64,000 nucleotides of DNA from Bathymodiolus japonicus methanotrophic gill symbiont (GTDB taxonomy: Bacteria; Pseudomonadota; Gammaproteobacteria; Methylococcales; Methylomonadaceae), in assembly GCF_019721995.1 (NCBI RefSeq), contig NZ_BLYC01000014.1, positions 1 to 64,000 of the forward strand, given 5' to 3'. A program made the translations under genes and the position numbers. Below, in pieces: positions 1-57,637 of the stretch; within the stretch, counting starts at the first letter, position 1; every line of letters starts with the position of its first letter. Under the pieces are notes generated by a model. That model did not search any database, was not told where the DNA came from, and worked only from the letters and a program-made list of their open reading frames with translations.

Positions 1-150
1 ATTTACTGAGTATTAAACAGAAAAAAACAACAGTAGCTTTTAGTGAATGATTGTTTTTAAGGTGGTGCGTTAAAATCGCTCTAAATGGCTAAAAATCGCA
101 AATGCTCTCTAACACCTCAACAATCAAAAAAGATAAGAATATTTACTCCT

Positions 151-248
151 TGACGGTATATTTGACGGTATAAATATTAATATAATTTATCAATTACTTT
201 AATATCAATTGGTTGTTTGTCTGTTTTGAGTACTGCCATCGGGCACCA
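151..248 (+). other. Duplicated att/arm-site region
   Basis: Two direct copies of TTGACGGTATA (about 150-173) are followed by GCCATCGGGCACCA at 235-248, which resembles the 3' end of the tRNA-Leu at 12797. This is the mirror copy of 6050-6147 and probably was duplicated with the arm. Confidence 0.5.
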
Positions 249-282
249 ATAGAAAATCCGGCAAATTCCGGTTAAGTACAGG

Positions 283-316
283 AAGCTCAAGAGCCATAAG
301 ACCTTGGGCTTTTTTA
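283..316 (+). terminator. Intrinsic terminator
   Basis: AAGCTCAAG (283-291) pairs with CTTGGGCTT (303-311), with one G-T pair, and is followed by a T run. It lies just downstream of the tRNA-end-like site. The mirror copy is at 5982-6015. Confidence 0.6.
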
Positions 317-440
317 TGTCTTAGGGTACACGCAGCTCGAAAAACTCTCAATATACCATTACCAGAGGTACGTATAAAAGCACTTAGGTTCTACTAATAA
401 GTGTGTTGTCCAACTCTATTAATCGTTTCAGTTTGATTTT

Positions 441-652
441 CAGGCGCGCCATGCTACCTCACGAAATTCCGGGACTCCTGTCGCCATAATTCGTTCACCT
501 ACGCAGCGGATGGGAGATGCCCTGAACGCCCTGCGTCCGCAACGACTACGCACAAAAGCCGCTTCGTCATTACTATCTCACTGGCTGGACGGCTATTCGG
601 AATGCAATTCTTGCTCCTCTCGCGTGCTGCTAGCACACGTCGAATCAGCGAA
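441..652 (+). repeat. A element, truncated (A1)
   Basis: It starts with the standard left end CAGGCGCGCC but stops at ATCAGCGAA, 68 bp short of the 280-bp unit, and is joined there to the middle of the IS4 transposase gene. The first 26-30 codons of that gene are missing. The mirror copy is at 5646-5857. Confidence 0.9.
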
Positions 653-1813
653 GGGTTATTACGCTGTATCAGTGTAGTCGATAGTGGTCGCCATTTCCTC
701 CAAACCAATGAACAGATTTATGGCCAGCTGCTTCCCCACTCAACGTATTTTAAATCACTGAAGTCGCATAGACGAACAAGTATGCTTGAGGCATTTGAAC
801 AGCAGAGCTATCATCTTCACGCTGAAACACTGCTGTCGCAAGGCATTGATTATCTTAAAGCATTCCCGGAACTTGACGAATACACCATAGAAGCAGCGGA
901 TGGACATTTTATTGATCATGCCTGCCATACTGAAAAAAACAGCAAGGGGAAAGTTTATGCGGCTGGGGGGATTTACGCGTTGAATCTCAGAAGTGGGTTG
1001 CTCAGATTTCTTTGTCTGGTGACAAACGGAACTCAGAGGCATCAAGAAATACCTGTGTTACGAGATCATATTGAAAAGCAAAACAAGGGAAATAACAGCT
1101 CTCAGAAACATCTCTATGTCTACGATAAAGCCGTCACCGACTTTGTCTGGTGGGATCGGCAGAAACGACATGCTAATTACATGATTTCAATGCTAAAAGA
1201 AAATTCAATTGCGACTCTGGTTGAGTCTATCCCTTTTGACTCCCGCCATGAGATCAATACAGGGGTTGAAGCATACAGTGTGTACGAAAACAAGGGCATC
1301 AAATTTAACGTGGTGGATTACCGTGATCCAGAAACCGGAAAACTTCACCGGTTTGTGACAACCTTGCCAATGACTATTAACCCTGGAACCATTGCCATGC
1401 TGTATTTCAAGCGATGGACGATTGAAAAGACATTCAATAACACTAAAAGTAATTTCAAGGAAACTAAAGCTTGGTCTTCCAATACCCGCTCACTTGAAAA
1501 TCAAATGCGCCTGACTGCAATGAGCTATAATTTAATGCGCGTGTTTGAAGAGATTTCAAAAACACAACAGCCAGAATTGATTCATCCATCGGATAAAAAA
1601 TATAGCGAGGCTCTGGAGATAAGGCAGCAACAGGCTCAAAAACGAGATCGTTTTGTGAATCCATTATTTTTCCAGGCAAGAATATCTCGTATCAGCTCGT
1701 ATACCATTCGGGCAGTTCAAAACGCAATAATAACAGGAATGTCTTTACAGTGCTTTATGAGCTCTCTTGTGGCGAGGTTAGTTTCACGGCATCAATTGAT
1801 AGGGGAACACTGA
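602..1813 (+). pseudogene. IS4-family transposase, N-terminus replaced by A element
   Basis: From GLLRCISVVDSG onwards (base 653) this is the IS4-type transposase found elsewhere in the window. The catalytic C-terminal motif Y-2-R-3-E-6-K is visible as YFKRWTIEKTFNNTK. The intact N-terminus (MLKDLPLSEHIHQHC, seen at 47803 and 63078) is absent; the open frame instead begins inside the A element with MQFLLLSRAAS. The IS right end GGGGAACACTGATGA closes at 1816. The chimeric frame is uninterrupted but lacks the native start and promoter, so function is doubtful. Confidence 0.85.
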
Positions 1814-1816
1814 TGA

Positions 1817-1995
1817 CCAGCATAGGGAATAATAAAGCCTGGTTATATTTACCCGAAAAGACGATTGTACTTGGGCATGCATTTTCATTATTCAGTTCCT
1901 GTCAGGATACTATCAGCGGAGAAACATTTGATTTTAGCGTGCAAGTCAGGCTTGATGATCAGTTATATACAGGTTGCGGCAGGTCATTGCTTTAA
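1817..1995 (+). pseudogene. 3' fragment of COG3650-like periplasmic/lipoprotein gene
   Basis: After the IS4 end the frame continues as about 58 residues containing the pattern FSSCQDTISGETFDF and GCGRSLL at the C-terminus. That spacing (a Cys-Asp-x-(M/I)-S block, then an R-L-D-x-x-x-Y-x-G-C-G ending) is typical of the C-terminal domain of COG3650/DUF306-like envelope proteins. The 5' part is missing, removed or displaced by the IS. A mirror copy lies at 4303-4481. Family assignment is from pattern only. Confidence 0.45.
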
Positions 1996-2264
1996 ACATA
2001 AAGCTAGTGTAATAAAAATGGTAAAATGACATCTACAATTTAACATAATATACATTATACGAAGTAAATAACGGTACCTCTTAAAAAACTTTCGTTTAAG
2101 AAAATAATAAAAATCACGAGTGATTGAACGAATAAGAACGGATAGTATTTGAATCATGAGAGCCAGGAAAGTTAATTCTGATTAATGTATAGCAAAGATC
2201 AGGCATACATACAGAAGGTGTAAAGGTTTTTGATAAATATTGAGGGATATTACATCTAACAGAT
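1996..2264. other. AT-rich non-coding stretch
   Basis: I see no gene in this part of the arm. It contains ATACATTATACGAAGT at about 2048, a half-lox look-alike with no partner arm, and ends where the two arms diverge. Confidence 0.5.
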
Positions 2265-2499
2265 ACAGCTACCAAACAATTTACAGAGGCTACAAATGAG
2301 CTATACACACCTATGTCCTGAAGAAAGATATTATATAGAAATTGAATTAAAAAAGGGAACTTCACAGAATAAAATAGCAGAAGCCTTAGAACGAAGCCAA
2401 AGCAATATTTCACGCGAGATTAAACGCAATACAGGTCAAAGAGGCTACAGGCATAAACAAGCAGAAGATTTTTCCCAAGAACGACACAAAAACAAGCCT

Positions 2500-3077
2500 T
2501 CGGGGAGTCGCTATTTTTGCGAAAGCTTGTTTTGGGCATCCCAGCCCAAGCAAGCAGCAAAAACTTAACGCGACCACTTATGCCTCCGGCGGCCCCGATT
2601 CGTCCTCGTCACCTCGTCCCGACCCAACAAGGGGTCGGAACATAGGCTCCAAATGACTTGACGCCGTGTCGGATGGCCTTTTATTTTGTCTCCACCTTCG
2701 CTAACGCTCAGACTCCGACAAAACACAGGCGCGCCATGCTACCTCACAACATTCTGGGACTCCTGTCACCAACATTCATTCGCCTACGCAGCGAATGGGA
2801 GATGCCCTGGTCGCCCTGCGTCCGTCTCAACTACGCACAAAACCCTGCTCCGTTAAGACTACCTCAAATGGCTGGACGGCTATTCGGAATGCAATTCTTG
2901 CCTCCCTCGCGCGCTACTAGCGCACTTCGGATCAGCGAATTGCCCTGTCGCCTACCAGGGACTAAAAATCATCACTCCGCTTAGGCTCCGTTTCCCTGAT
3001 TTTAAGCGACGGCCCTACGGCTATCGCGGACTAAAAATCTTCACTTCGCTAAAGCTCCGTTTCCAGGATTTTCAGCG
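2500..3077 (+). repeat. C element (C1) carrying a nested D element
   Basis: It starts TCGGGGAGTCGC and ends GATTTTCAGCG. Without the nested D element (2726-3008) it is 295 bp, the same as the other C copies. It inserts precisely in the IS30 gene with no target duplication; the right flank is AAAG. Confidence 0.93.
2726..3008 (+). repeat. D element nested in C1
   Basis: It starts CAGGCGCGCC and ends GATTTTAAGCG, 283 bp. Deleting it restores GACAAAACA-ACGGCCC, exactly as in the uninterrupted C copy at 28264. It shares its left block with A and B but has its own middle. Right flank ACGG. Confidence 0.93.
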
Positions 3078-3442
3078 AAAGAGGTTAAATTAACGGATGA
3101 AATAAAAGGCATTGTTAATGTTCGCATTGAGGATGACTGGAGTCCTGAGCAGATTGCAGGGCGGTTAAAACAAGAAGGTATAATTAGTCTTCATCATGAA
3201 ACAATCTATCAGCATATTCTGGCGTACAAAAAGGCAGGGGGTGAACTATACAAGCATCTTCGGCATCAGAACAAAACCTATCGCAAGCGGTATGGGTCAG
3301 CCCATAATAGGACAGGAATCCCTAATAGAGTCGATATAGATGAGCGTCCTGAAGAGGTCAACAACCGTAAGCGTATAGGTGGTTGGGAGGCAGATACAAT
3401 CATTGGGGAAAATCACAAAGGGGCGATTGTTAGGCCTATCTC

Positions 3443-3931
3443 ATGATAAACGGGCTTGTTGTTAATCAAGTGTTTTTGGCGACCGGCGTTACTGATATGC
3501 GTAAATCTATCAATGGTCCTCCGTATTTATATATTCCTGAAGTTAGTCAGCGCCTTGAAGGTACGACGATAGGCCTAGGTGCGCAGAATGTTGCAACACA
3601 TTCAGAAGGTGCCTATACAGGTGAAATAGCGGCAGTAATGCTGAAAGATTTTAGCTGTAAATATGCCATCGTAGGACATTCTGAGCGTAGAGCAAACTAT
3701 GCAGATACTGATGAGACCGTTGCACAGCGATTTAAGCAAGCGCTTGATGCAGATATCATTCCCGTTCTGGCTATCGGCGAACTACTCGAAGAAAGAGAGC
3801 AGGGTGTTACCTTTGATGTTGTTGCCAAGCAGTTAAATGCGGTTATAGATTTTGCTGGTATCGACAGCTTTCAAAATGCGGTTATTGCATATGAGCCTGT
3901 ATGGGCGATAGGCATCAGCTTTATTCTTTAA
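3443..3931 (+). pseudogene. Chimera: IS66 tnpB start fused to internal tpiA fragment
   Basis: The first 27 codons (MINGLVVNQVFLATGVTDMR) are the start of an IS66 TnpB. From about 3519 to 3915 the sequence is a near-identical copy of the middle of the tpiA gene at 13335-14087 (one mismatch seen near the join), reading in frame through GHSERR and AYEPVWAIG and then leaving the match. The tpiA piece has neither the N-terminal Lys (NWKM) nor the C-terminal phosphate-binding loops, so it cannot be an active isomerase. Confidence 0.9.
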
Positions 3932-4302
3932 TTGATTTACAGCGTCTTTCTGTCGGCAGAGGGTTATGCACTTATTATACGAATTCAGGTCTTTTGATCG
4001 TTTACCGTCCAATTGTTTAATTTTTTCCTCTAAATCTGTTAGATGTAATATCCCTCAATATTTATCAAAAACCTTTACACCTTCTGTATGTATGCCTGAT
4101 CTTTGCTATACATTAATCAGAATTAACTTTCCTGGCTCTCATGATTCAAATACTATCCGTTCTTATTCGTTCAATCACTCGTGATTTTTATTATTTTCTT
4201 AAACGAAAGTTTTTTAAGAGGTACCGTTATTTACTTCGTATAATGTATATTATGTTAAATTGTAGATGTCATTTTACCATTTTTATTACACTAGCTTTAT
4301 GT

Positions 4303-4481
4303 TTAAAGCAATGACCTGCCGCAACCTGTATATAACTGATCATCAAGCCTGACTTGCACGCTAAAATCAAATGTTTCTCCGCTGATAGTATCCTGACAGG
4401 AACTGAATAATGAAAATGCATGCCCAAGTACAATCGTCTTTTCGGGTAAATATAACCAGGCTTTATTATTCCCTATGCTGG
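4303..4481 (-). pseudogene. Mirror copy of COG3650-like 3' fragment
   Basis: Identical in reverse complement to 1817-1995, including the GCGRSLL C-terminus. It is part of the inverted duplication and carries no extra information. Confidence 0.45.
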
Positions 4482-5696
4482 TCATCAGTGTTCCCCTATC
4501 AATTGATGCCGTGAAACTAACCTCGCCACAAGAGAGCTCATAAAGCACTGTAAAGACATTCCTGTTATTATTGCGTTTTGAACTGCCCGAATGGTATACG
4601 AGCTGATACGAGATATTCTTGCCTGGAAAAATAATGGATTCACAAAACGATCTCGTTTTTGAGCCTGTTGCTGCCTTATCTCCAGAGCCTCGCTATATTT
4701 TTTATCCGATGGATGAATCAATTCTGGCTGTTGTGTTTTTGAAATCTCTTCAAACACGCGCATTAAATTATAGCTCATTGCAGTCAGGCGCATTTGATTT
4801 TCAAGTGAGCGGGTATTGGAAGACCAAGCTTTAGTTTCCTTGAAATTACTTTTAGTGTTATTGAATGTCTTTTCAATCGTCCATCGCTTGAAATACAGCA
4901 TGGCAATGGTTCCAGGGTTAATAGTCATTGGCAAGGTTGTCACAAACCGGTGAAGTTTTCCGGTTTCTGGATCACGGTAATCCACCACGTTAAATTTGAT
5001 GCCCTTGTTTTCGTACACACTGTATGCTTCAACCCCTGTATTGATCTCATGGCGGGAGTCAAAAGGGATAGACTCAACCAGAGTCGCAATTGAATTTTCT
5101 TTTAGCATTGAAATCATGTAATTAGCATGTCGTTTCTGCCGATCCCACCAGACAAAGTCGGTGACGGCTTTATCGTAGACATAGAGATGTTTCTGAGAGC
5201 TGTTATTTCCCTTGTTTTGCTTTTCAATATGATCTCGTAACACAGGTATTTCTTGATGCCTCTGAGTTCCGTTTGTCACCAGACAAAGAAATCTGAGCAA
5301 CCCACTTCTGAGATTCAACGCGTAAATCCCCCCAGCCGCATAAACTTTCCCCTTGCTGTTTTTTTCAGTATGGCAGGCATGATCAATAAAATGTCCATCC
5401 GCTGCTTCTATGGTGTATTCGTCAAGTTCCGGGAATGCTTTAAGATAATCAATGCCTTGCGACAGCAGTGTTTCAGCGTGAAGATGATAGCTCTGCTGTT
5501 CAAATGCCTCAAGCATACTTGTTCGTCTATGCGACTTCAGTGATTTAAAATACGTTGAGTGGGGAAGCAGCTGGCCATAAATCTGTTCATTGGTTTGGAG
5601 GAAATGGCGACCACTATCGACTACACTGATACAGCGTAATAACCCTTCGCTGATTCGACGTGTGCTAGCAGCACGCGAGAGGAGCAAGAATTGCAT
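4482..5696 (-). pseudogene. Mirror copy of chimeric IS4 transposase
   Basis: The reverse complement of the 602-1816 transposase, with the same A-element-derived N-terminus and the same Y-R-E-K motif. The identity over more than 1.2 kb shows that the duplication came after the A-IS4 fusion. Confidence 0.85.
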
Positions 5697-5857
5697 TCCG
5701 AATAGCCGTCCAGCCAGTGAGATAGTAATGACGAAGCGGCTTTTGTGCGTAGTCGTTGCGGACGCAGGGCGTTCAGGGCATCTCCCATCCGCTGCGTAGG
5801 TGAACGAATTATGGCGACAGGAGTCCCGGAATTTCGTGAGGTAGCATGGCGCGCCTG
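5646..5857 (-). repeat. A element, truncated (mirror of A1)
   Basis: Reverse complement of 441-652, with the left end GGCGCGCCTG closing at 5857 and truncation at the transposase junction. Confidence 0.9.
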
Positions 5858-6049
5858 AAAATCAAACTGAAACGATTAATAGAGTTGGACAACACACTTA
5901 TTAGTAGAACCTAAGTGCTTTTATACGTACCTCTGGTAATGGTATATTGAGAGTTTTTCGAGCTGCGTGTACCCTAAGACATAAAAAAGCCCAAGGTCTT
6001 ATGGCTCTTGAGCTTCCTGTACTTAACCGGAATTTGCCGGATTTTCTAT

Positions 6050-6147
6050 TGGTGCCCGATGGCAGTACTCAAAACAGACAAACAACCAATTGATATTAAA
6101 GTAATTGATAAATTATATTAATATTTATACCGTCAAATATACCGTCA
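6050..6147 (-). other. Probable attR of the tRNA-Leu island, with integrase arm-type repeats
   Basis: On the minus strand GCCATCGGGCACCA (6050-6063) matches the tRNA-Leu 3' end GCCATCGGCACCA apart from one extra G, in the orientation expected for the far end of an island at 12797. About 60-80 bp into the island lie two TATACCGTCAA repeats (6125-6147). The same ATACCGTCA motif occurs twice near the integrase at 12661-12682. Shared core and arm-like repeats at both ends fit P4-type integration; the divergence in the core leaves doubt. Confidence 0.5.
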
Positions 6148-6311
6148 AGGAGTAAATATTCTTATCTTTTTTGATTGTTGAGGTGTTAGAGAGCATTTGC
6201 GATTTTTAGCCATTTAGAGCGATTTTAACGCACCACCTTAAAAACAATCATTCACTAAAAGCTACTGTTGTTTTTTTCTGTTTAATACTCAGTAAATCAT
6301 TAGCCACTCGC

Positions 6312-7243
6312 CCAGAGTCGCAATTGAATTTTCTTTTAGCATTGAAATCATGTAATTAGCATGTCGTTTCTGCCGATCCCACCAGACAAAGTCGGTGACG
6401 GCTTTATCGTAGACATAGAGATGTTTCTGAGAGCTGTTATTTCCCTTGTTTTGCTTTTCAATATGATCTCGTAACACAGGTATTTCTTGATGTCTCTGAG
6501 TTCCGTTTGTCACCAGACAAAGAAATCTGAGCAACCCACTTCTGAGATTCAACGCGTAAATCCCCTCGGCCGCATAAACTTTCCCCTTGCTGTTTTTTTC
6601 AGTATGGCAGGCATGATCAATAAAATGTCCATCCGCTGCTTCTATGGTGTATTCGTCAAGTTCCGGGAATGCTTTAAGATAATCAATGCCTTGCGATAGC
6701 AGTGTTTCAGAGTGAAGATGATAGCTCTGCTGTTCAAATGCCTCAAGCATACTTGTTCGTCTATGCGACTTCAGTGATTTAAAATACGTTGAGTGGGGAA
6801 GCAGCTGGCCATAAATCTGTTCATTGGTTTGGAGGAAATGGCGACCACTATCGACTACACTGATACAGCGTAATAACCCAAGGCGAATAAAGTCGATATC
6901 CTTCAACTCTGGGCATGAACGAGCCCACAAAGGATGACGCTCTGCTAACAGGGCACGTTCCATACTTTCATTGCAGTGTTGGTGAATATGTTCAGAGAGT
7001 GGTAGGTCTTTAAGCATGGGTGATATCCGTTTATGAGGTGATTAAAACGGAAATTTTTAGAAAAATTTTTTCGGCAATTGCAAGCTTTATTTGAAATTAT
7101 TTGTTGTTTTTTTACGGTGCCTACAGAGTGTCTATTTGCTGTGATAAGTGATTAAAATCAAAAAGATGGAAATATTCGAGTGGTGCTACATTCAGGTAGG
7201 TTATAGGCTGCTTTGTTTAGGTACTTCTTCTTTCAATGGGAAC
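6312..7243 (-). pseudogene. IS4 transposase, 3'-truncated, with IS left end
   Basis: The native start is present (MLKDLPLSEHIHQHC, 7017 downwards) and the frame runs to KENSIATL, then is cut at 6311 by the end of the inverted arm; the catalytic Y-R-E-K half is missing. Upstream, 7018-7243 is the IS leader and left end up to CAATGGGAAC; the last bases of the terminal repeat (ACTGATGA) are missing. Confidence 0.88.
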
Positions 7244-7494
7244 TAGGTTTATGCCTTAGAATCTTACCTCCAATGGCGAATTTAATTATTAGCTATTGGT
7301 GGGCTATTACCCAGCCGTCGTTATTTCAATACTTATTAACGTTACACTGTAATGCTTAGTTAGTTCGTTACAGTGTAACATTAATTATCATTGTTTTATG
7401 CCGAGTGGCTGGTTTTAAAGTATAGGGCGTTTTGGCCATTGCTTCAATTATAAGATTAGTTTTTATTTGATGACTATTCTTCAAAAAAACCATG
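7244..7494. other. Intergenic with a 12-bp perfect inverted repeat
   Basis: GTTACACTGTAA (7341-7352) and TTACAGTGTAAC (7368-7379) form a perfect 12-bp stem with a 15-nt loop. There is no T run, so it is not a standard terminator. It could be an operator or recombination site of the island. No gene is seen here. Confidence 0.55.
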
Positions 7495-11458: not shown

Positions 11459-12634
11459 CTAATGGTTGGTGTTTCTTAAATTATCTAAATAATTTCCCCA
11501 GTCTTGCATCAACCGCCTACGTTCATCTAAATACTGCGCCCGATTATAAGCTGCTCTTACGGCATCTTTTGGCATGTGGCATAACTGCCTTTCAATAGCA
11601 TCTGGAGACCAGCCTTGTTCATTAAGCAAAGTAGAGGCAGTTGTTCTAAATCCGTGGGCTGTCATGGTGTTACTATCATAGCCTAGTGTTTTTAGTGCGG
11701 TAAGAATCGTACCGCTAGACATAGGACGACCATCACCACGACTAGAAGGAAAAACATATTGACCATTACCCGTTAAAGGCTTAATTTCATTTAATATTGC
11801 TATGGATTGGGTTGATAATGGCACAATGTGTAGCACCTTAGTTTTAGTGACAAAATAACGCCATTCCTTCGCCTTAAAATCAATATCTTTCCATTCCATT
11901 TGTCGAATTTCACCAGGACGTTGAAATAATAGCGGGGATATTTTAAAAGCACATTGCACAACAAACGTTCCATTGTAATGATAAATATCTCTTAATAGTT
12001 GGGCTACGTCTTTGGGTTCAGTTAATGCGGCTCTATGGGTTACTTTTTGTGAAGGAATTTGTGGGGCTACTGCTTGGGCGGGGTCATAATCTATTAAACC
12101 ATGTGCTATGGCATAACTAAAAACTAGGCTTATTTCACTGTGTATGCGGTGAGCTGTTTCTAATTTTTTACTCTCAATCATCGGTTTTAGTGATTGATAA
12201 ATATCTGGGGACTTTATATCACCAATAGGCATAGCCCCAATATTGGGGAAGGTATGTAATTCAAACCGCCTTATTTTCTTATGTTGGGTGGTTTCATTAA
12301 CATTATGGGCAATAGATGCTAAATAATCACGGGTACTTTTTTCAAAAGTATGATTAGTAGCGGTTTTTTCTATTTTTTTCTTTTCGTTGGGGTCAATACC
12401 TTGCGCTAATGCTTCTCGTGCTTTGGTATGTTTCTCCCTTGCTTGTTTTAAGCTGGTGTCAGGATAAATACCCAATGCTAATGTTTTTCGTTTACCTTCA
12501 AACCGATAATCAAACCTAAAATATTTACTACCATTAGGGCGTACTAATAAATACATGCCTTTTTCATCAGACACCTTGAAAGCTTTATCTTCTCTGGGTT
12601 TAAGTTTTTTTATAGCGGTATCAGATAGTGACAT
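11459..12634 (-). CDS. int: P4-type tyrosine integrase
   Basis: The 391-residue integrase has the DUF4102 arm-binding domain at the N-terminus (MSLSDTAIKKLKPREDKAFKVSD), the core-binding domain, and a C-terminal catalytic domain with the Arg in RPGEIRQMEW, the H-x-x-R box in MTAHGFRTTAST and the nucleophile Tyr in AAYNRAQYLDERR. The gene starts near tRNA-Leu and reads away from it, as in P4 and CP4-57. It should catalyse integration and excision at the tRNA 3' end. It appears intact. Confidence 0.93.
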   Translation of the reverse strand: MSLSDTAIKKLKPREDKAFKVSDEKGMYLLVRPNGSKYFRFDYRFEGKRKTLALGIYPDTSLKQAREKHTKAREALAQGIDPNEKKKIEKTATNHTFEKSTRDYLASIAHNVNETTQHKKIRRFELHTFPNIGAMPIGDIKSPDIYQSLKPMIESKKLETAHRIHSEISLVFSYAIAHGLIDYDPAQAVAPQIPSQKVTHRAALTEPKDVAQLLRDIYHYNGTFVVQCAFKISPLLFQRPGEIRQMEWKDIDFKAKEWRYFVTKTKVLHIVPLSTQSIAILNEIKPLTGNGQYVFPSSRGDGRPMSSGTILTALKTLGYDSNTMTAHGFRTTASTLLNEQGWSPDAIERQLCHMPKDAVRAAYNRAQYLDERRRLMQDWGNYLDNLRNTNH

Positions 12635-12796: not shown

Positions 12797-12881
12797 TGGT
12801 GCCGATGGCCGGAGTTGAACCGGCACGACTTGCGTCACCACCCCCTCAAGATGGCGTGTCTACCAATTTCACCACATCGGC
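12797..12881 (-). tRNA. tRNA-Leu (GAG)
   Basis: The 85-nt sequence starts GCCGATGTGGTGAAATT and ends CATCGGCACCA with encoded CCA. The anticodon stem CCATC/GGTGG closes the loop TTGAGGG, giving anticodon GAG. A long variable arm is present, as in class II tRNAs. It starts 5 bp after secG, the usual gammaproteobacterial order, and its 3' end is the island attachment site. Confidence 0.95.
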
Positions 12882-13334: not shown

Positions 13335-14087
13335 TTATTTTTGAAATGAAGAGTAAATCTTTAAAAAAGAGTCCGCATTTAACGAATCTCCACCAACTAG
13401 CGCGCCATCAATATCAGGCATTGCAAATAAAGCTTGTGCATTTTGTGGTTTAACGCTACCACCATATAGAATTTGAATTTTTTCGGCAATTTGCTGGTTC
13501 TTACCCGCTAGCAATTGACGAATATACTGGTGTACTTCCTGTGCCTGTTCTGCTGATGCAGTTAGTCCTGTGCCTATCGCCCATACAGGCTCATATGCAA
13601 TAACCGCATTTTGAAAGCTGTCGATACCAGCAAAATCTATAACCGCATTTAACTGCTTGGCAACAACATCAAAGGTAACACCCTGCTCTCTTTCTTCGAG
13701 TAGTTCGCCGATAGCCAGAACGGGAATGATATCTGCATCAAGCGCTTGCTTAAATCGCTGTGCAACGGTCTCATCAGTATCTGCATAGTTTGCTCTACGC
13801 TCAGAATGTCCTACGATGGCATATTTACAGCTAAAATCTTTCAGCATTACTGCCGCTATTTCACCTGTATAGGCACCTTCTGAATGTGTTGCAACATTCT
13901 GCGCACCTAGGCCTATCGTCGTACCTTCAAGGCGCTGACTAACTTCAGGAATATATACATACGGAGGACAAACGACTATGTCAGCATCTTCGGAAGGCAG
14001 ACCAGCAATAATTTCACCAATTAGCTTCTGCGCACTTTGCTGGTTAATTTTCATCTTCCAGTTGCCAACAACAAGATTTCTACGCAT
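13335..14087 (-). CDS. tpiA: Triosephosphate isomerase
   Basis: A 250-residue TIM barrel that interconverts dihydroxyacetone phosphate and glyceraldehyde 3-phosphate. Catalytic Lys is in NWKM near the start, His in VGHSERR (about residue 97), Glu in AYEPVWAIGTG (about 167), and the phosphate loop is YGGSVKPQN. All are intact. It lies in the glmM-tpiA-secG operon. A 397-bp internal piece of this gene is duplicated at 3519-3915. Confidence 0.98.
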   Translation of the reverse strand: MRRNLVVGNWKMKINQQSAQKLIGEIIAGLPSEDADIVVCPPYVYIPEVSQRLEGTTIGLGAQNVATHSEGAYTGEIAAVMLKDFSCKYAIVGHSERRANYADTDETVAQRFKQALDADIIPVLAIGELLEEREQGVTFDVVAKQLNAVIDFAGIDSFQNAVIAYEPVWAIGTGLTASAEQAQEVHQYIRQLLAGKNQQIAEKIQILYGGSVKPQNAQALFAMPDIDGALVGGDSLNADSFLKIYSSFQK

Positions 14088-15482: not shown

Positions 15483-15515
15483 ATTTCTCTATCCTATTTT
15501 TTTCTAGAAACCTCA

Positions 15516-15795
15516 CAGGCGCGCCATGCTACCTCACGAAATTCCGGGACTCCTGTCGCCATAATTCGTTCACCTACGCAGCGGATGGGAGATGCCCTGA
15601 ACGCCCTGCGTCCGCAACGACTACGCACAAAAGCCGCTTCGTCATTACTACCTCACTGGCTGGACGGCTATTCGGAATGCAATTCTTGCTCCTCTCGCAT
15701 GCTGCTAGCACACGTCGAATCAGCGAATTGCCCTGTCGCCTATCAGGGACTAAAAATCACCACTTCGCTAAGCTCCGTTTCCATGATTTTCAGCG
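15516..15795 (+). repeat. A element (A15), 280 bp
   Basis: Full unit from CAGGCGCGCC to TTTTCAGCG in the glmM-ftsH gap. Right flank GTTG. The surrounding 150 bp (15796-15940) hold no recognisable gene. Confidence 0.95.
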
Positions 15796-15940
15796 GTTGA
15801 GCGCAGATTTATGCAAAAAACTGTGGAGCGAAGCACACTCATCCAACAGGTGACAGTTTTTTCGCTCATTAGTGTAATACTCAGATGCTTTTTTAATGTT
15901 TTATAGTACTCGACTGCGGTTTCAATATATATTCATATCA

Positions 15941-19072: not shown

Positions 19073-19417
19073 AGGGCGTGGCTTTAGCCCGCTATTATCC
19101 ATATTTTGATACAGGCGCGCCATGCTACCTCACGAAATTCCGGGACTCCTGTCGCCATAATTCGTTCACCTACGCAGCGGATGGGAGATGCCCTGAACGC
19201 CCTGCGTCCGCAACGACTACGCACAAAAGCCGCTTCGTCATTACTACCTCACTGGCTGGACGGCTATTCGGAATGCAATTCTTGCTCCTCTCGCGTGCTG
19301 CTAGCACACGTCGAATCAGCGAATTGCCCTGTCGCCTATCAGGGGCTAAAAATCACCACTTCGCTAAGCTCCGTTTCCATGATTTTCAGCGTTAGCGGCT
19401 AAAGCCACTCCCTACAT
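19073..19417. repeat. Palindromic repeat split by an A element
   Basis: TAGGGCGTGGCTTTAGCCCGC on the left and GCGGCTAAAGCCACTCCCTA on the right of the A element are the two arms of an intergenic hairpin repeat also found at 29627-29688. A half-like copy (GTGAAGCCACGCCCGA) lies near 19990. It may act as a bidirectional terminator. Confidence 0.8.
19112..19391 (+). repeat. A element (A19), 280 bp
   Basis: A full unit inserted in the loop of the intergenic palindrome. Right flank TTAG. It differs from the other A copies by single bases only. Confidence 0.95.
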
Positions 19418-24678: not shown

Positions 24679-25417
24679 TTATCCATACTTCCGGTATCGC
24701 CATACAGCATAGCTGCCCCCAACATTCAGCTTCCGTGCTTCCAGTACCTCACAAATAACTAATTGGTGATCACCAGCCGAAGTTTCATGGCTTACTTTAC
24801 AATCAAAATACGCTAGACTCTCTTGCAGCACTGGCGCCCCGGTCGATGCAGCCACCCAGGTTCCGACTGCCATTTTATCGCTAATTCCAGACTGGCCAAA
24901 ATGCTCGGCAAAATGGCTTTGTTCCTGACTTAAAACATTAACACTGCAAACCAGGCGCGCCATGCTACCTCACGGAATTCCGGGATTCCTGTCGCCATAA
25001 TTCGTTCACCTACGCAGCGGATGGGAGATGCCCTGAACGCCCTGCGTCCGCAACGACTACGCACAAAAGCCGCTTCGTCATTACTACCTCACTGGCTGGA
25101 CGGCTATTCGGAATGCAATTCTTGCTCCTCTCGCGTGCTGCTAGCACACGTCGAATCAGCGAATTGCCCTGTCGCCTTTCAGGGACTAAAAATCACCACT
25201 TCGCTAAGCTACGTTTCCATGATTTTCAGCGATTGCCTTTTTTAAGCAATTGATATGAGTAATGTTCAGGATTAATGCTGATAGCTAATAGTACCGGTGA
25301 AAAAGACACCTGCATCACCCATGCTGCAGTAAAGGCATTGGTTTTATCTCCATCGGCAACACCAACCACATACACGCCTTGGGTAATATGTTGCAGTATA
25401 TTTGCTATGTCTTGCAT
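24679..25417 (-). pseudogene. Flavin reductase-like (FMN-binding split barrel) gene split by A24
   Basis: The N-terminal part is MQDIANILQHITQGVYVVGV...FSPVLLAISINPEHYSYQLLKKGN and the C-terminal part VCSVNVLSQEQSHFAEHFGQSG...ICEVLEARKL. Removing the 280-bp element rejoins GGCAAT-GTTTGC in frame, giving one protein of about 150 residues with the split-barrel signature of NAD(P)H:FMN reductases. The element itself carries stops in this frame. It overlaps the end of nadC by 13 bp, so the two were one operon. Confidence 0.88.
24952..25231 (+). repeat. A element (A24), 280 bp
   Basis: Exact insertion in the flavin reductase gene without duplication or loss. Right flank ATTG, left flank GCAAAC. 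Confidence 0.96.
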
Positions 25418-34908: not shown

Positions 34909-35734
34909 TGAAATTTAACAAAACAATTGCCTTGGCTTTATTCACCAGCCCTTTTATCTCTTTTGCCAGCTTAACCCATCTTCGTCACTTTCATCTTTCT
35001 AAGCCATTGATTCATCGGTTTAAGCGATTTTTTGTCGAAAAATTCTCTTTAAAATCAATGGTGTTTTTTTTGAAAGTTTTGTAGTGCCATTTATATTATT
35101 TTTGTCGATAAATTCATTGACTTTTGTCAAAAAAATCATCATTATTTGAGTGTAATTTACATGCGACAAAAATACTCTAAAAAATCCAACGTTTTATACA
35201 AAAACACAAAATCTGTAGTGCCAACTGGCTACTTTTTAAAATTTCAACCAATTGATTTATAACAACTACATCATCAATAGTGACGAAGATGGGTTAAGCA
35301 ATGCAACTGAAACAGCAGCACCCGAGTCGACTGAAAAGTCATATGGCGCTAAAATAGGCAATAAAACCCTGATTGCTTTAGCTAATATTTCTCTCGGCAT
35401 CATTGAAATCCCCAAAAATATTATTATCGTGACTAACCGAACCAATCTACTTTATGGCCTGACCGGTGGTACTGGGCTAGGTGTACTCAATACAGCCGGA
35501 CGTATTTCTGTTGGCCTGCTGGATCTACTTACCTTCCCACTACCAACACAACCTATTGCACGACCTGTTTACCCCTGGAATCAGTACTTAGACGTTTACA
35601 CTAGCTATAATGATATGTTTGTAATGGATTATCAAAGTGAAAGCATGCTCGGGAAAGAAACGCTGTCAATATGCGCCAATATTAGCCAGTCTAACGCAAA
35701 AAATTACCAGCCTTACTTGCCTTTTTGCTCCTGA
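34909..35734 (+). pseudogene. Exosortase-associated TIGR04073-like protein, split by a 327-bp MITE
   Basis: The signal peptide MKFNKTIALALFTSPFISFA (34909) is followed immediately by the MITE. Removing one TTAA-to-TTAA unit gives FAS-LSNATETAAPESTEKS in frame, then YGAKIGNKTLIALANISLG, EIPKNIIIVTNRTN, YGLTGGTGLGVLNTAGRISVG and PVYPWNQYLDVYTS, the conserved pattern of the TIGR04073 family of small exported proteins linked to exosortase/EPS systems. It is about 165 residues when repaired. A TATACT -10-like box lies at about 34868. Confidence 0.75.
34971..35297 (+). mobile_element. 327-bp MITE with TTAA target duplication (copy 1)
   Basis: The terminal inverted repeat is CCCATCTTCGTCACT...AGTGACGAAGATGGG, flanked by TTAA on both sides. 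The interior is AT-rich and non-coding. Copy 2 (57051-57637) has the same length after its B element is removed. Both insertions restore a reading frame when one TTAA is kept. Confidence 0.95.
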
Positions 35735-42102: not shown

Positions 42103-43297
42103 CTTGTTGAACGCCCCCTGCACTACTGATATTGCGCTGGTAAAAAACACCTCGGAAGCGCTGTCATTTGTCGCCTACGGCCTGGATTGGCAAGTTGGAG
42201 ATAATATCGTATCGAGTAATGAAGAATTCCCATCCAACCGTATCGTCTGGCAGTCCCTGGCTGACCAGCAAGTTGAGTTTCGCGAAGCAAACCTGTCTAC
42301 TGCCGAAACACCCGAGGATGCGCTGTTTGCATTGGTAGACAAGCATACGCGTTTAATTAGCATTAGCTCGATACAATTTGCCAGTGGCTTGCGTATGAAC
42401 CTTCAAAGAATTGGTGAGTTTTGCAAACAGCAGCATATTTTATTTTGTATTGATGCCATACAAAGCATTGGTGCAGTACAATTTGACGTGCAAAAATATC
42501 AGGCTGATTTTGTTATGGCCGATGGGCATAAATGGATGCTGGGGCCCGAAGGCCTGGGGGTATTTTATAGTAGCCCTGCGGCACGAGAGCAATTAAAACT
42601 GACTCAATATGGCTGGCATATGATGCACGATACGCATAATTATGAAAATAAGCCATGGGATACCCACCCTGCAGCGCAGCGCTTTGAGTGCGGTAGCCCA
42701 AATACCTTAGGTATACATGCATTATCAGCTAGTTTATCAGTATTACTTGACACTGGTATGGCTACAGTAGAAAGGCAAGTGCTGGCTAATGCCCGTTATT
42801 TAATGGATGCGATACAGTCACACCCCCGTTTAGAGTTATTAAGCAATGCATCGGCTCACTTACAATCAGGCATAGTAGTTTTTAGGCATACGCAAATGAC
42901 CCAGCAAGCTTTGTATACACATCTGCAGGAAAATAACGTGGTGTGCGCCATGCGTGGCGGTGGGATTCGGTTTTCAGCGCATTTTTTTTATAATGTAGCG
43001 CAGGCGCGCCATGCTACCTCACGAAATTCCGGGACTCCTGTCGCCGTAATTCGTTCACCTACGCAGCGAATAGGAGATGCTCCAGCCGCCCTGCGTCCGC
43101 CACAGACTGAGCACAAAGCAGCTCAGTCATGGCTACCTCAAATGGCTCTACGGCTATTCGGGATAAAATTTTAGCCTCCCTCGCGCGCTATCGCGCACTT
43201 CGGATTGGCAAATTTCCCTGCGCCTTCTGGAGACTATCAGCCCGTCCGGGGCTGACAGCGGAAGAACTTGATGCCGCAGTGGGGTTAATACCTGAAT
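42103..43297 (+). pseudogene. Class V aminotransferase (cysteine desulfurase-like), 5'-truncated and split by B43
   Basis: The PLP-binding Lys lies in VMADGHKWMLGPEGLG, the PLP-stacking region in ISISSIQFASGLRMNL, and the phosphate/substrate region in RFECGSPNTLGIHALSAS. The first 80 or so residues, including the usual start, are missing at the IS3 junction. After the B element the frame continues EELDAAVGLIPE and stops; joining GTAGCG-GAAGAA restores ...HFFYNVAEELDAAVGL in frame. Family is clear, substrate is not. Confidence 0.88.
43001..43260 (+). repeat. B element (B43), 260 bp
   Basis: Exact insertion near the aminotransferase 3' end. Left flank GTAGCG, right flank GAAG. Confidence 0.96.
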
Positions 43298-43365: not shown

Positions 43366-44088
43366 ATGACTCAAGACAATATTTCGACAAAACCCATTCC
43401 GACTAATGAACGACTTATAATGGCGCTGGACTTCCCTAGCATTGCGCAAGCAAAGGTATTAGTCGAGGAGCTCGGTGATACGGTGGTTTACTACAAAGTG
43501 GGCATGGAAATATTTATGTCTGGTGACTATTTCGCATTTATAGAATGGTTAAAATCTCGAAATAAAAAAATATTTGTTGATCTGAAATTTTTTGATATTC
43601 CGGCTACTGTGGGTCGTGCGATTAAAGCGTTACGCAGCAAAGGCGTTGATATGGCAACTATTCACGGTAATGATTCGATTATGCAGGCGGCTACTAAAGA
43701 GAAAGGAGACTTGAAAGTGCTGGCCGTTACGGCGTTAACTAGCCTGGATCGGGGCGATCTAGATGATCTTGGATTTCAATGTGATGTACAACAACTGGTA
43801 CTTTCTCGAGCTAAACGTGCACTGGCTATAGGCTGTGATGGTATCGTCTCATCCGGTCTGGAAGTTCCAATGTTACGTGAACAACTGGATCATAAATTAC
43901 TGGTAATTACCCCAGGTGTACGTCCTATTGACAACCGTATAGAAGATGATCAGAAACGTGTCGTTAGCGTAGAGCAGGCTTTTCAGAATGGTGCGGATTA
44001 TATAGTAATCGGTCGCCCTATTCGTGATGCGGAAAACAGCAAAGCAATGGCAGAAAAAATTCAGTTGCAAATTGCGTCACAGTTTTAG
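43366..44088 (+). CDS. pyrF: Orotidine 5'-phosphate decarboxylase
   Basis: A 240-residue TIM-barrel enzyme for the last step of UMP synthesis. The N-terminal LIMALDFPS, the catalytic Asp-Lys-x-x-Asp in IFVDLKFFDIPATVG, and the C-terminal VITPGVRP and YIVIGRPI phosphate-binding blocks are all present. It stands alone between the dead aminotransferase and element A44. TTAAAATAGC at about 43325 could be part of its promoter. Confidence 0.97.
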   Translation: MTQDNISTKPIPTNERLIMALDFPSIAQAKVLVEELGDTVVYYKVGMEIFMSGDYFAFIEWLKSRNKKIFVDLKFFDIPATVGRAIKALRSKGVDMATIHGNDSIMQAATKEKGDLKVLAVTALTSLDRGDLDDLGFQCDVQQLVLSRAKRALAIGCDGIVSSGLEVPMLREQLDHKLLVITPGVRPIDNRIEDDQKRVVSVEQAFQNGADYIVIGRPIRDAENSKAMAEKIQLQIASQF

Positions 44089-44103
44089 GCTCTAAACTCT
44101 TCA

Positions 44104-44383
44104 CAGGCGCGCCATGCTACCTCACGAAATTCCGGGACTCCTGTCGCCATAATTCGTTCACCTACGCAGCGGATGGGAGATGCCCTGAACGCCCTGCGTC
44201 CGCAACGACTACGCACAAAAGCCGCTTCGTCATTACTATCTCACTGGCTGGACGGCTATTCGGAATGCAATTCTTGCTCCTCTCGCGTGCTGCTAGCACA
44301 CGTCGAATCAGCGAATTGCCCTGTCGCCTATCAGGGACTAAAAATCACCACTTCGCTAAGCTCCGTTTCCATGATTTTCAGCG
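44104..44383 (+). repeat. A element (A44), 280 bp
   Basis: A full unit 16 bp after the pyrF stop. Right flank GGAG. Confidence 0.96.
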
Positions 44384-44390
44384 GGAGTAA

Positions 44391-47047: not shown

Positions 47048-47310
47048 TTAAGTGTTCTTGCCGGCCAGTAAACCCCCTGATATTCGCGTTGCCAGATCTG
47101 TCCGGTATTTTCTCTTTGCTTAAACTCGATGTTCAAGTTTTTTAACTGATTGATTTTATTGATAATTTTACTGACAAAGAAAGCATCAACATCATTGTAA
47201 ATCAATCACTTATAAAACAAAGCCGGAAGAATTTACTTTTCTTAGCCCAGTTATAGCTGAAAACTTGAACATCGAGTTAAAAGAGCTAAAAGTATAACGA
47301 TACACGATGG
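47048..47310 (-). pseudogene. C-terminal gene fragment split by a 152-bp MITE
   Basis: With the MITE and one TTAAA removed, the minus strand reads VYRYTFSSFKQRENTGQIWQ, then REYQGVYWPARTLN and a stop. The block resembles the C-terminus of lipase-maturation-factor-like membrane proteins (TGxxWxRxxxGxYxPP), a weak assignment. The rest of the gene is not in the window. Confidence 0.4.
47125..47276 (+). mobile_element. 152-bp MITE with TTAAA duplication
   Basis: The ends CTCGATGTTCAAGTTTT and GAAAACTTGAACATCGAG are inverted repeats shared with the IS at 54334-55863. TTAAA is duplicated at 47120-47124 and 47277-47281. It is an internally deleted or unrelated-core derivative of that IS. Confidence 0.95.
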
Positions 47311-47590
47311 CAGGCGCGCCATGCTACCTCACGAAATTCCGGGACTCCTGTCGCCATAATTCGTTCACCTACGCAGCGGATGGGAGATGCCCTGAACGCC
47401 CTGCGTCCGCAACGACTACGCACAAAAGACGCTTCGTCATTACTACCTCACTGGCTGGACGGCTATTCGGAATGCAATTCTTGCTCCTCTCGCGTGCTGC
47501 TAGCACACGTCGAATCAGCGAATTGCCCTGTCGCCTATCAGGGACTAAAAATCACCACTTCGCTAAGCTCCGTTTCCATGATTTTCAGCG
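47311..47590 (+). repeat. A element (A47), 280 bp, at a joint
   Basis: A full unit. Its right flank GAAG is the IS4 left-end region, its left flank GATGG is unrelated, so the outer 25 bp of the IS are missing. Confidence 0.96.
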
Positions 47591-48137
47591 GAAGAAGTAC
47601 ATAAACAAAGCAGCCTATAACCTACCTGAAGGTAGCACCACTCGAATATTTCCATCTTTTTGATTTTAATCACTTATAACAGCAAATAGACACTCTGTAG
47701 GCACCGTAAAAAAACAACAAATAATTTCAAATAAAGCTTGCATTTACCGAAAAAATTTTCTAAAAAATTCCGTTTTAATCACCTCATAAACGGATATCAC
47801 CCATGCTTAAAGACCTACCACTCTCTGAACATATTCACCAACACTGCAATGAAAGTATGGAACGTGCCCTGTTAGCAGAGCGTCATCCTTTGTGGGCTCG
47901 TTCATGCCCAGAGTTGAAGGATATCGACTTTATTCGCCTTGGGTTATTACGCTGTATCAGTGTAGTCGATAGTGGTCGCCATTTCCTCCAAACCAATGAA
48001 CAGATTTATGGCCAGCTGCTTCCCCACTCAACGTATTTTAAATCACTGAAGTCGCATAGACGAACAAGTATGCTTGAGGCATTTGAACAGCAGAGCTACC
48101 ATCTTCACTCTGAAACACTGCTATCGCAAGACATTGA
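47591..48137 (+). pseudogene. IS4 transposase, 5' part (continues at 51873)
   Basis: The native start MLKDLPLSEHIHQHCNESME (47803) runs to ETLLSQDI, where an IS66 element enters. The sequence resumes at 51873 after an 8-bp duplication (GACATTGA). The two parts were one IS4 copy. Confidence 0.92.
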
Positions 48138-50877: not shown

Positions 50878-51458
50878 CAGGCGCGCCATGCTACCTCACG
50901 AAATTCCGGGACTCCTGTCGCCCGCTGCCAGCCATGGAGAGCGAACGCGAGGGCTGGTAGTCCCCAGAAGGCGTAGGGCCGTTGTTTTGTCGGAATCGTA
51001 GCGCTAGCGTAGGTGTAGACAAAATAAAAGGCATTCCGGAACGCCGTCCAGTCATTTGAGGGAGTGTTACGAAGCCAGCACCGAGTTTACGATGGTAATG
51101 GCGAAGTGGCACGTACGCAGGACGTCTGGGGCGCCGAAGGCATTAGTGGTCGCGTTAAGTTTTTGCTGCTTGCTTGGGCTGGGATGCCCAAAACAAGCTT
51201 TCGCAAAAATAGCGACTCCCCGTATAATTCGTTCACCTACGCAGCGGATGGGAGATGCCCTGAACGCCCTGCGTCCGCAACGACTACGCACAAAAGCCGC
51301 TTCGTCATTACTACCTCACTGGCTGGACGGCTATTCGGAATGCAATTCTTGCTCCTCTCGCGTGCTGCTAGCACACGTCGAATCAGCGAATTGCCCTGTC
51401 GCCTATCAGGGACTAAAAATCACCACTTCGCTAAGCTCCGTTTCCATGATTTTCAGCG
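50878..51458 (+). repeat. A element (A50) carrying nested E
   Basis: 280 bp once the 301-bp E element (50923-51223) is removed. Exact insertion in the second tnpC copy. Right flank ATGG. Confidence 0.95.
50923..51223 (-). repeat. E element nested in A50, 301 bp
   Basis: Starts ACGGGGAGTCGC (C-type left module) and ends CATGGCTGGCAGCG (its own right hairpin). Deleting it restores GTCGCC-ATAATTCG of a normal A element. Right flank GGCG. This is the only copy seen. Confidence 0.92.
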
Positions 51459-51872
51459 ATGGAAGGTACAATACAGAGAATTACTTGGCAAAGCGGAGAT
51501 CGAATGCCCACCACCCGATAAGCCTAAAGAAGTAAAACGGGAGCGAATAAAACGCAGTAAAGCTAGAAACTTACTGGAAAGGCTGATTAATTATGAAGAG
51601 GATGTCTTGCACTTCATGATAAATACCTGGGTGCCATTTACCAATAATGCCGCAGAAAATTCGATTCGGATGACCAAGGTTCAACAGAAGATATCCGGCT
51701 GCTTTCGTAGTACCAAGGGTGCAGAGATATTTTGTCGTGTCAGAGGGTATTTATCAACGTGCCGTAAACAAGGTCTAAGTGCAACTCAGGCAATGACCTT
51801 GGTCTTTGAGGGAAAGTTACCTGAATTTGCTTTATAATTTCATTGAACTACTCAGCGAAGCTGAGTAGTTAC

Positions 51873-57050: not shown

Positions 57051-57637
57051 TTAACCCATCTTCGTCACTATTGATGATGTAGTTGTTATAAATCAATTGG
57101 TTGAAATTTTAAAAAGTAGCCAGTTGGCACTACAGATTTTGTGTTTTTGTATAAAACGTTGGATTTTTTAGAGTATTTTTGTCGCATGTAAATTACACTC
57201 AAATAATGATGATTTTTTTGACAAAAGTCAATGAATTTATCGACAAAAATAATATAAATGACACTACAAAACTTTCAAAAAAAACACCATTGATTTTAAA
57301 GAGAATTTTTCGACAAAAAATCGCTTAAACCGATGAATCAATGGCTTAGAAACAGGCGCGCCATGCTACCTCACGAAATTCCGGGACTCCTGTCGCCGTA
57401 ATTCGTTCACCTACGCAGCGAATAGGAGATGCTCCAGCCGCCCTGCGTCCGCCACAGACTGAGCACAAAGCAGCTCAGTCATGGCTACCTCAAATGGCTC
57501 TACGGCTATTCGGGATAAAATTTTAGCCTCCCTCGCGCGCTATCGCGCACTTCGGATTGGCAAATTTCCCTGCGCCTTCTGGAGACTATCAGCCCGTCCG
57601 GGGCTGACAGCGGATGAAAGTGACGAAGATGGGTTAA
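57051..57637 (-). mobile_element. 327-bp TTAA MITE (copy 2) carrying B57
   Basis: Same ends and same length as 34971-35297 once the 260-bp B element is removed. TTAA is duplicated; keeping one restores CACCGC-TTAA-CTGCC in frame in the ABC gene. Confidence 0.95.
57353..57612 (+). repeat. B element (B57), 260 bp, in the MITE
   Basis: Deleting it gives GGCTTAGAAA-GATGAAAG, identical to the uninterrupted MITE at 34971. Right flank GATG. Confidence 0.98.

Follow-up and report, generated by a model that had tools for sequence, protein, structure and literature searches.

The usual description of a circular chromosome has a single dif site. In eukaryotes, template-switch rearrangements carry short pieces from elsewhere at the joint. 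The closest described case to the locus presented here is that of the L. bulgaricus terminus repeats (El Kafsi et al. 2017, PMC5345009), in which the repeat contains dif, and dif is accordingly duplicated and opposed within an inverted repeat. These repeats are 18.7 to 37.7 kb long as against 3.2 kb here and, in the available text, are conserved in five strains and backed by complete genomes and sequencing depth, whereas the present case comes from one draft (PMC5345009). L. bulgaricus belongs to the Firmicutes, while the genome analyzed here belongs to the Methylococcales. The authors of that study looked for a role of insertion sequences (IS) and, as far as the available text goes, found no trace of one, whereas an IS end lies at the outer edge of the repeat here (PMC5345009). 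A core-gene scrap at the turning point is likewise not described in that text, whereas a piece of tpiA is found there in the present locus (PMC5345009).

Other systems share single features with this one. In Bacillus thuringiensis 4Q7, long inverted repeats surround the terminus after a rearrangement, similar to the situation here; that strain is laboratory-derived, however, and according to the available text its 553-kb duplication lies next to a deletion of 492 kb spanning dif (PMC8116677). Single-chromosome Vibrio cholerae strains offer, as does this locus, a natural chromosome with two dif sites, but in the available description these sites come from two fused chromosomes, lie far apart, are not identical, and are not part of an inverted copy (PMC5603330). 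Eukaryotic fold-back inverted duplications and microhomology template-switch rearrangements resemble the locus in having a break-derived inverted copy with few shared bases, going by the portions of these reports available (PMC3907307, PMC10622511, PMC11790251). The differences are that the present case is bacterial and located at dif, and that base overlap exceeds zero at two joints only. In a limited search of the open-access literature, with sources available in part, L. bulgaricus was the sole precedent for an inverted repeat that gives a natural chromosome opposed dif sites, and no report came up of a terminus repeat whose turning point holds part of a core gene. Two opposed dif sites should, according to the L. 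bulgaricus account, hinder dimer resolution (PMC5345009), and extra dif copies arising from over-replication of the terminus are discussed as a dimer-resolution problem in the accessible text of two further papers (PMC8347550, PMC10331603).

The window, meaning the whole stretch of 64,000 nucleotides that was analyzed, corresponds to G000:C14:1-64000, so that window base 1 is base 1 of contig C14. The assembly of this genome (G000) comprises 4,971,076 bases in 109 contigs and is 98.86% complete. An inverted duplication occupies the start of the window. Arm 1 (positions 1-2264, minus strand) matches the reverse complement of positions 4034-6297 with 0 mismatches over 2264 bases, and arm 2 (4034-7243, plus strand, 3210 bp) stops on its outer side about 7 bp before an IS end. 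Because the window begins at C14 base 1, the inverted duplication runs off the contig, and arm 1 continues in contig C76. This contig of 11,696 bp matches window 4702-7243 with 0 mismatches and one gap near its end, and carries other genes beyond; the inner part of that stretch, C76:1-1597, equals window 1596-1 in reverse with one gap. Free of mismatches, the arm measures 2264 bp within C14, and 3210 bp if arm 1 is read on into C76. The arm is thus flanked differently on its outer side in C14 and in C76, as must be the case in a real inverted duplication. Two flanks could also come from a sample that contains both orientations, but such a mixture could not alone produce the two arms on C14.

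The outer edge in C14 cuts the IS about 7 bp short of an end that is present in C76 and in two further copies that continue alike, and dozens of copies of this IS exist in the genome. Either arm may be the original: the IS end is longer in C76, whereas arm 2 may continue naturally into the 44 bp next to it. The locus, with identical arms and with dif, GC skew, and XerD as markers, is an inverted repeat at the replication terminus of a draft assembly. It works in the manner of the L. bulgaricus repeats, but at 3210 bp it does not belong to the very large repeats above 8 kb to which the search in the L. bulgaricus paper was limited.

Each arm carries one dif site. The 28-mer ACTTCGTATAATGTATATTATGTTAAAT is found at positions 2038-2065 on the minus strand in arm 1 (21-mer core at C14:2038-2058) and at positions 4233-4260 on the plus strand in arm 2 (21-mer core at 4240-4260). 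These are the only two matches to the 21-mer in the genome at up to 2 mismatches, and they are opposed and 2.2 kb apart, as in the L. bulgaricus type of terminus. The 28-mer fits the arrangement of XerC box, center, and XerD box and is close to published dif sites. Those published, as given in the accessible parts of the sources, are GGTGCGCATAATGTATATTATGTTAAAT for E. coli, ATTTCGTATAATGTATATTATGTTAAAT for Nitrosomonas europaea, and TATGCGCATAATGTATATTATGTTAAAT for Methylococcus capsulatus (PMC2731167, PMC3025954). With up to 2 mismatches, the 21-mer was matched in 51 of 61 genomes including the present one, most of them having one match each, and a reversed-pattern control was matched in one of the 61 (G008). 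With at most 1 mismatch, a match was found in 212 of 311 genomes of the order, again with the present one included; the 99 genomes that lack a match include divergent sites and incomplete genomes. Two matches occurred in seven of the 311 (G000, G001, G011, G019, G024, G070, and G223), and G000 is the only one among these in which both lie on one contig, although many of the 311 genomes are drafts and a second dif on another contig could be close by in the real chromosome. In G024, both matches (G024:C53:19-39 and G024:C269:2-22) lie within 40 bases of contig starts, and the pair may be one dif seen from two contigs or another rearranged terminus. The opposed duplication of dif is a rearrangement of the terminus, a feature that was absent from the reading in the preliminary description of this DNA. 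The duplicated, opposed dif sites are the main point of the locus, and the fusion of tpiA to TnpB described below is probably incidental to it. A Xer-dependent mobile element at dif was considered as well. Xer-dependent integration yields direct repeats, and the repeats here are inverted, so this candidate was rejected.

The location at the terminus is supported by GC skew and XerD. The skew of C14 ranges from −0.11 to −0.20 over 8-40 kb (negative outward) and is near zero beyond 40 kb, while on C76 outside the arm it amounts to −0.14, −0.04, and −0.04 in successive 3-kb steps, with one slightly positive value in finer steps. XerD was detected at 382.6 bits against a curated cut-off of 329.6, and a second Xer-like protein, which scores 292.6 bits against the XerD model, is probably XerC. 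The KOPS motif GGGNAGGG occurs eight times outside the arms, and all eight copies are oriented toward the palindrome. All other arrangements of the same letters summed to 55 against 119 in that same direction, and local G bias alone gives eight of eight with p ~0.05, so KOPS was downgraded as proof of the terminus. An aminotransferase-like gene lies at most 1.3 kb from dif in three of the seven same-genus dif loci compared (G008, G009, and G016), and is found at about 42.1 kb here. This aminotransferase class V gene (42104-43174), about 38 kb from dif, has an end that runs into a repeated short element, and the stretch that follows it (43366-44088) resembles pyrF by eye.

Between the arms lies a center of 1769 bp (2265-4033) that is composed of pieces of different origin. 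It starts with the body of an IS30-type transposase (2265-3430, plus strand) that lacks its 5′ end, contains HTH_38, and matches many copies; short nested elements lie inside it at 2500-3077. In an uninterrupted IS30-type copy, rve is below cut-off. The next piece is a 90-bp tnpB start of IS66 type (3429-3518, plus strand), which is 100% identical to C4:31261-31350, the only full-length match at 100% among the matches listed. Its assignment to tnpB follows from the longer copy in C4, which matches PF05717 at 117.6 bits. The tpiA fragment (3516-3914, plus strand) comes thereafter, followed by 41 bp of unmatched origin (3915-3955), by a 34-bp IS30 end without its body (3956-3989, minus strand) that matches the left end of many IS30-type copies, and by 44 bp of single-copy DNA (3990-4033) adjoining arm 2. 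Neither the 41-bp nor the 44-bp piece has a second match in its own genome at up to 3 mismatches, and no source for them was found in 40 relatives when positions 3915-4485 were used as the query, of which the gene, dif, and IS30-end parts were matched. The tpiA copy had been placed between two IS pieces. It adjoins one directly on its left side, the 90 bp of IS66 tnpB, but not on its right side, where the 41 unmatched bp intervene before the 34-bp IS30 end.

Templated pieces from several places (IS30 body, IS66, tpiA, and IS30 end) are thus joined in series, as in FoSTeS/MMBIR-like rearrangements. Overlaps were read from the sequence at three joints, at two of which, IS30/IS66 and IS66/tpiA, both sources are known on comparable copies. 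The IS30/IS66 joint shares GT (2 bases), the IS66/tpiA joint shares GTC (3 bases), and the arm/IS30 joint shares none. By our own arithmetic, a random joint would share at least 2 bases with p ~0.16 and at least 3 bases with p ~0.05, and the observed overlaps, little beyond chance, are suggestive only.

The fragment derives from the resident intact tpiA (13335-14087, minus strand), which encodes 250 amino acids and matches PF00121 at 303.8 bits. The named genomes with the best tpiA matches are mostly Methylococcales. Positions 3516-3914 on the plus strand align without gaps to 13571-13969 on the minus strand, with 398 of 399 bases identical, and cover nucleotides 119-517 of the resident gene, including the complete codons 41-172. 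On this alignment, chance cannot account for a match of 399 bp at 99.7% identity. The preliminary description thus correctly recognized an internal, nearly identical copy of tpiA inside the center of the inverted duplication, which is real in the assembly, although the copy measures 399 bp and not the 397 bp given there. It also correctly stated that the copied part is not bordered by IS ends in the source gene. In the 4.97-Mb assembly, tpiA DNA occurs in two places only, among the 40 of 133 candidates scored with positions 3400-4040 as the query, and the tpiA pair is the only low-copy duplicate recognized as a core gene in a self-comparison of C14 plus C76. The remaining low-copy pairs in these contigs resemble IS pieces by eye or are short pairs of no recognized identity. 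Carriage of the same fragment by relatives had also been raised, and no match spanning the IS66-tpiA joint was seen in 60 other genomes, with at most nine candidates scored per genome.

The sole mismatch between the fragment and the resident gene lies at fragment base 12 (window 3527), where the fragment has T and the resident gene has G. Of the 14 tpiA loci read from the 16 same-genus genomes with a tpiA match, 11 have T at this position and three have C. Judged by these relatives, the fragment seems to keep the older state, and it was most likely copied before one substitution arose in the resident tpiA. A consensus error in the resident tpiA or a piece from another strain is a possible source of the difference as well. 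An error of template switching was initially considered for this mismatch and dropped once the relatives showed the fragment's base. The near-identity had been taken to show a recent origin, a conclusion that is not supported in this form, as the fragment has the relatives' base and the resident gene differs. Had the fragment been a misassembled or chimeric copy of the resident gene as it is today, it would have G at this base; such an origin is disfavored.

The fusion creates a chimeric ORF of 162 amino acids (3443-3931, plus strand) consisting of 25 TnpB codons, partial TpiA, and four stray codons. The tpiA piece had been described as following the first 27 tnpB codons in frame; the frame agrees, and the codon count is 25. 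Residues 25-157 match PF00121, but only profile positions 38-169 of 245 are covered, and both ends of the TIM barrel are absent. The ORF cannot yield a whole isomerase, and its sequence suggests no evident function. The in-frame character of the fusion is probably incidental and, as a 1-in-3 event, calls for no explanation.

The best explanation for the locus, and one that we hold to be somewhat better than an even bet, is fold-back copying with template switching after a terminus break or stalled fork. It is suggested by the combination of perfect arms with two flanks, two opposed dif sites, and a core-gene piece without IS ends. The reaction would start with a chromosome break, a fork collapse, or over-replication near dif. 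In recB mutants of E. coli, breaks in the dif region occur at cell division, as reported in the accessible part of the source (PMC5638614), and a fold-back rescue has been proposed for the L. bulgaricus terminus in the available text (PMC5345009). Subsequently, the DNA end would be extended on successive wrong templates through short pairing, one of them being tpiA, which lies some 6.3 kb past the outer edge of arm 2. A strand switch beside dif would then lead to copying back outward through dif for about 3.3 kb, and the new end would finally be attached to the flank at 7244. Of this process, the tpiA piece would be an inert by-product and, provided that the structure is real, two opposed dif sites the lasting consequence. 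The pieces of the center may stem from one event. Repair with template switching, as already proposed in the preliminary description, thus stands as the best reading, although the microhomology is weak (2, 3, and 0 bases at the three joints). The center may have flipped since the event, given the perfect arms and the opposed dif sites. Such a flip could proceed via XerCD at dif or via homologous recombination between the arms, and because either could turn the center around, the way the fragment is oriented today reveals little about the original event.

The center could also have accreted stepwise, with the inverted duplication formed first and the IS66 start, the tpiA piece, and the IS30 end added later by separate repair or end-joining events that eroded the center of the palindrome. 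The center is indeed asymmetric, with the 44 bp and the IS30 end beside arm 2 and not beside arm 1, and nested and broken IS pieces abound in the genome; in L. bulgaricus, later deletions are believed to have shaped the center, according to the available text (PMC5345009). Such a history requires more events, however, and the 0 mismatches over arms of 3210 bp suggest a short time unless recombination homogenizes the arms, which leaves accretion a minority view that we regard as unlikely. A further option is that recombination or aberrant transposition at IS copies made or closed the inverted copy and carried the tpiA piece along. In C14, an IS end is found about 7 bp from the outer edge; this end is complete in C76, and with dozens of IS copies available, the chromosome could have been closed by recombination with a copy at the C76 flank. 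Yet the inner edges at 2264 and 4034 are no recognized IS ends, the IS in C14 stops short of its end and so offers no clean IS boundary, and the tpiA and IS66 pieces are left unexplained; we consider an IS-driven origin quite improbable. A clean exchange between complete IS copies was considered for the outer joint, as both arms extend to an IS end; it is weakened because C14 is without the last bases seen in C76, and stays among the alternatives.

The whole structure (palindrome, tpiA piece, and two dif sites) rests on one draft assembly and lies at a contig end, and the main doubt about it is this reliance on a single assembly. A chimeric or misassembled contig end, produced by a fold-back read, an amplification chimera, or a strain mixture, would mean that the fragment and one arm exist in no single chromosome. 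The structure starts at contig base 1, and two flanks for one arm could arise solely from a population in which the dif segment occurs in both orientations. Amplification is known to generate fold-back chimeras that share few bases and have nearby sources. On the other hand, the fragment carries the base of the relatives and not that of the resident gene, C76 provides an independent second flank for the arm, and the center holds single-copy DNA that is present nowhere else in the genome. The joints share 0-3 bases, unlike the long-repeat joins made by assemblers. Weighed together, these observations make an artifact improbable.

More tentatively, fold-back copying with template switching may be extended to the proposal that a single break-rescue event gave rise to a natural gammaproteobacterial chromosome with two opposed dif sites 2.2 kb apart and a core-gene piece from nearby. 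In such a chromosome XerCD or RecA may flip the segment, which would make the locus a two-state terminus and a base-by-base fossil of repair; we see this as possible but the less probable outcome. If true, the locus would be a second case, from a different phylum and with the turning point kept, and would back fold-back copying as a rescue of broken termini. The locus would also serve as a system for asking which templates repair uses and how XerCD and FtsK handle opposed dif sites.

Several smaller features were observed in neighboring repeats and genes. A repeat family of about 294 nt has seven copies in the window (428-721, 15503-15796, 19099-19392, 24939-25232, 44091-44384, 47298-47591, and 51166-51459). 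These copies begin near GGCGCGCCATGCTACCTCAC, often lie within IS elements or at gene ends, and are MITE-like. Positions 34996-35297 and 57051-57352 form an inverted pair of 302 bp that is about 99.7% identical and low-copy in C14 and C76. On contig C4, locus L086 (G000:C4:30500-34500) has the IS66 tnpB copy that matches the 90-bp piece of the center at 100%, about 0.2 kb from an IS30-type element of opposite orientation, which is itself interrupted by other elements. Near tpiA, an integrase-like ORF (11459-12634) lies beside tRNA-Leu (12797-12881) and perhaps represents the remains of an integrated element.
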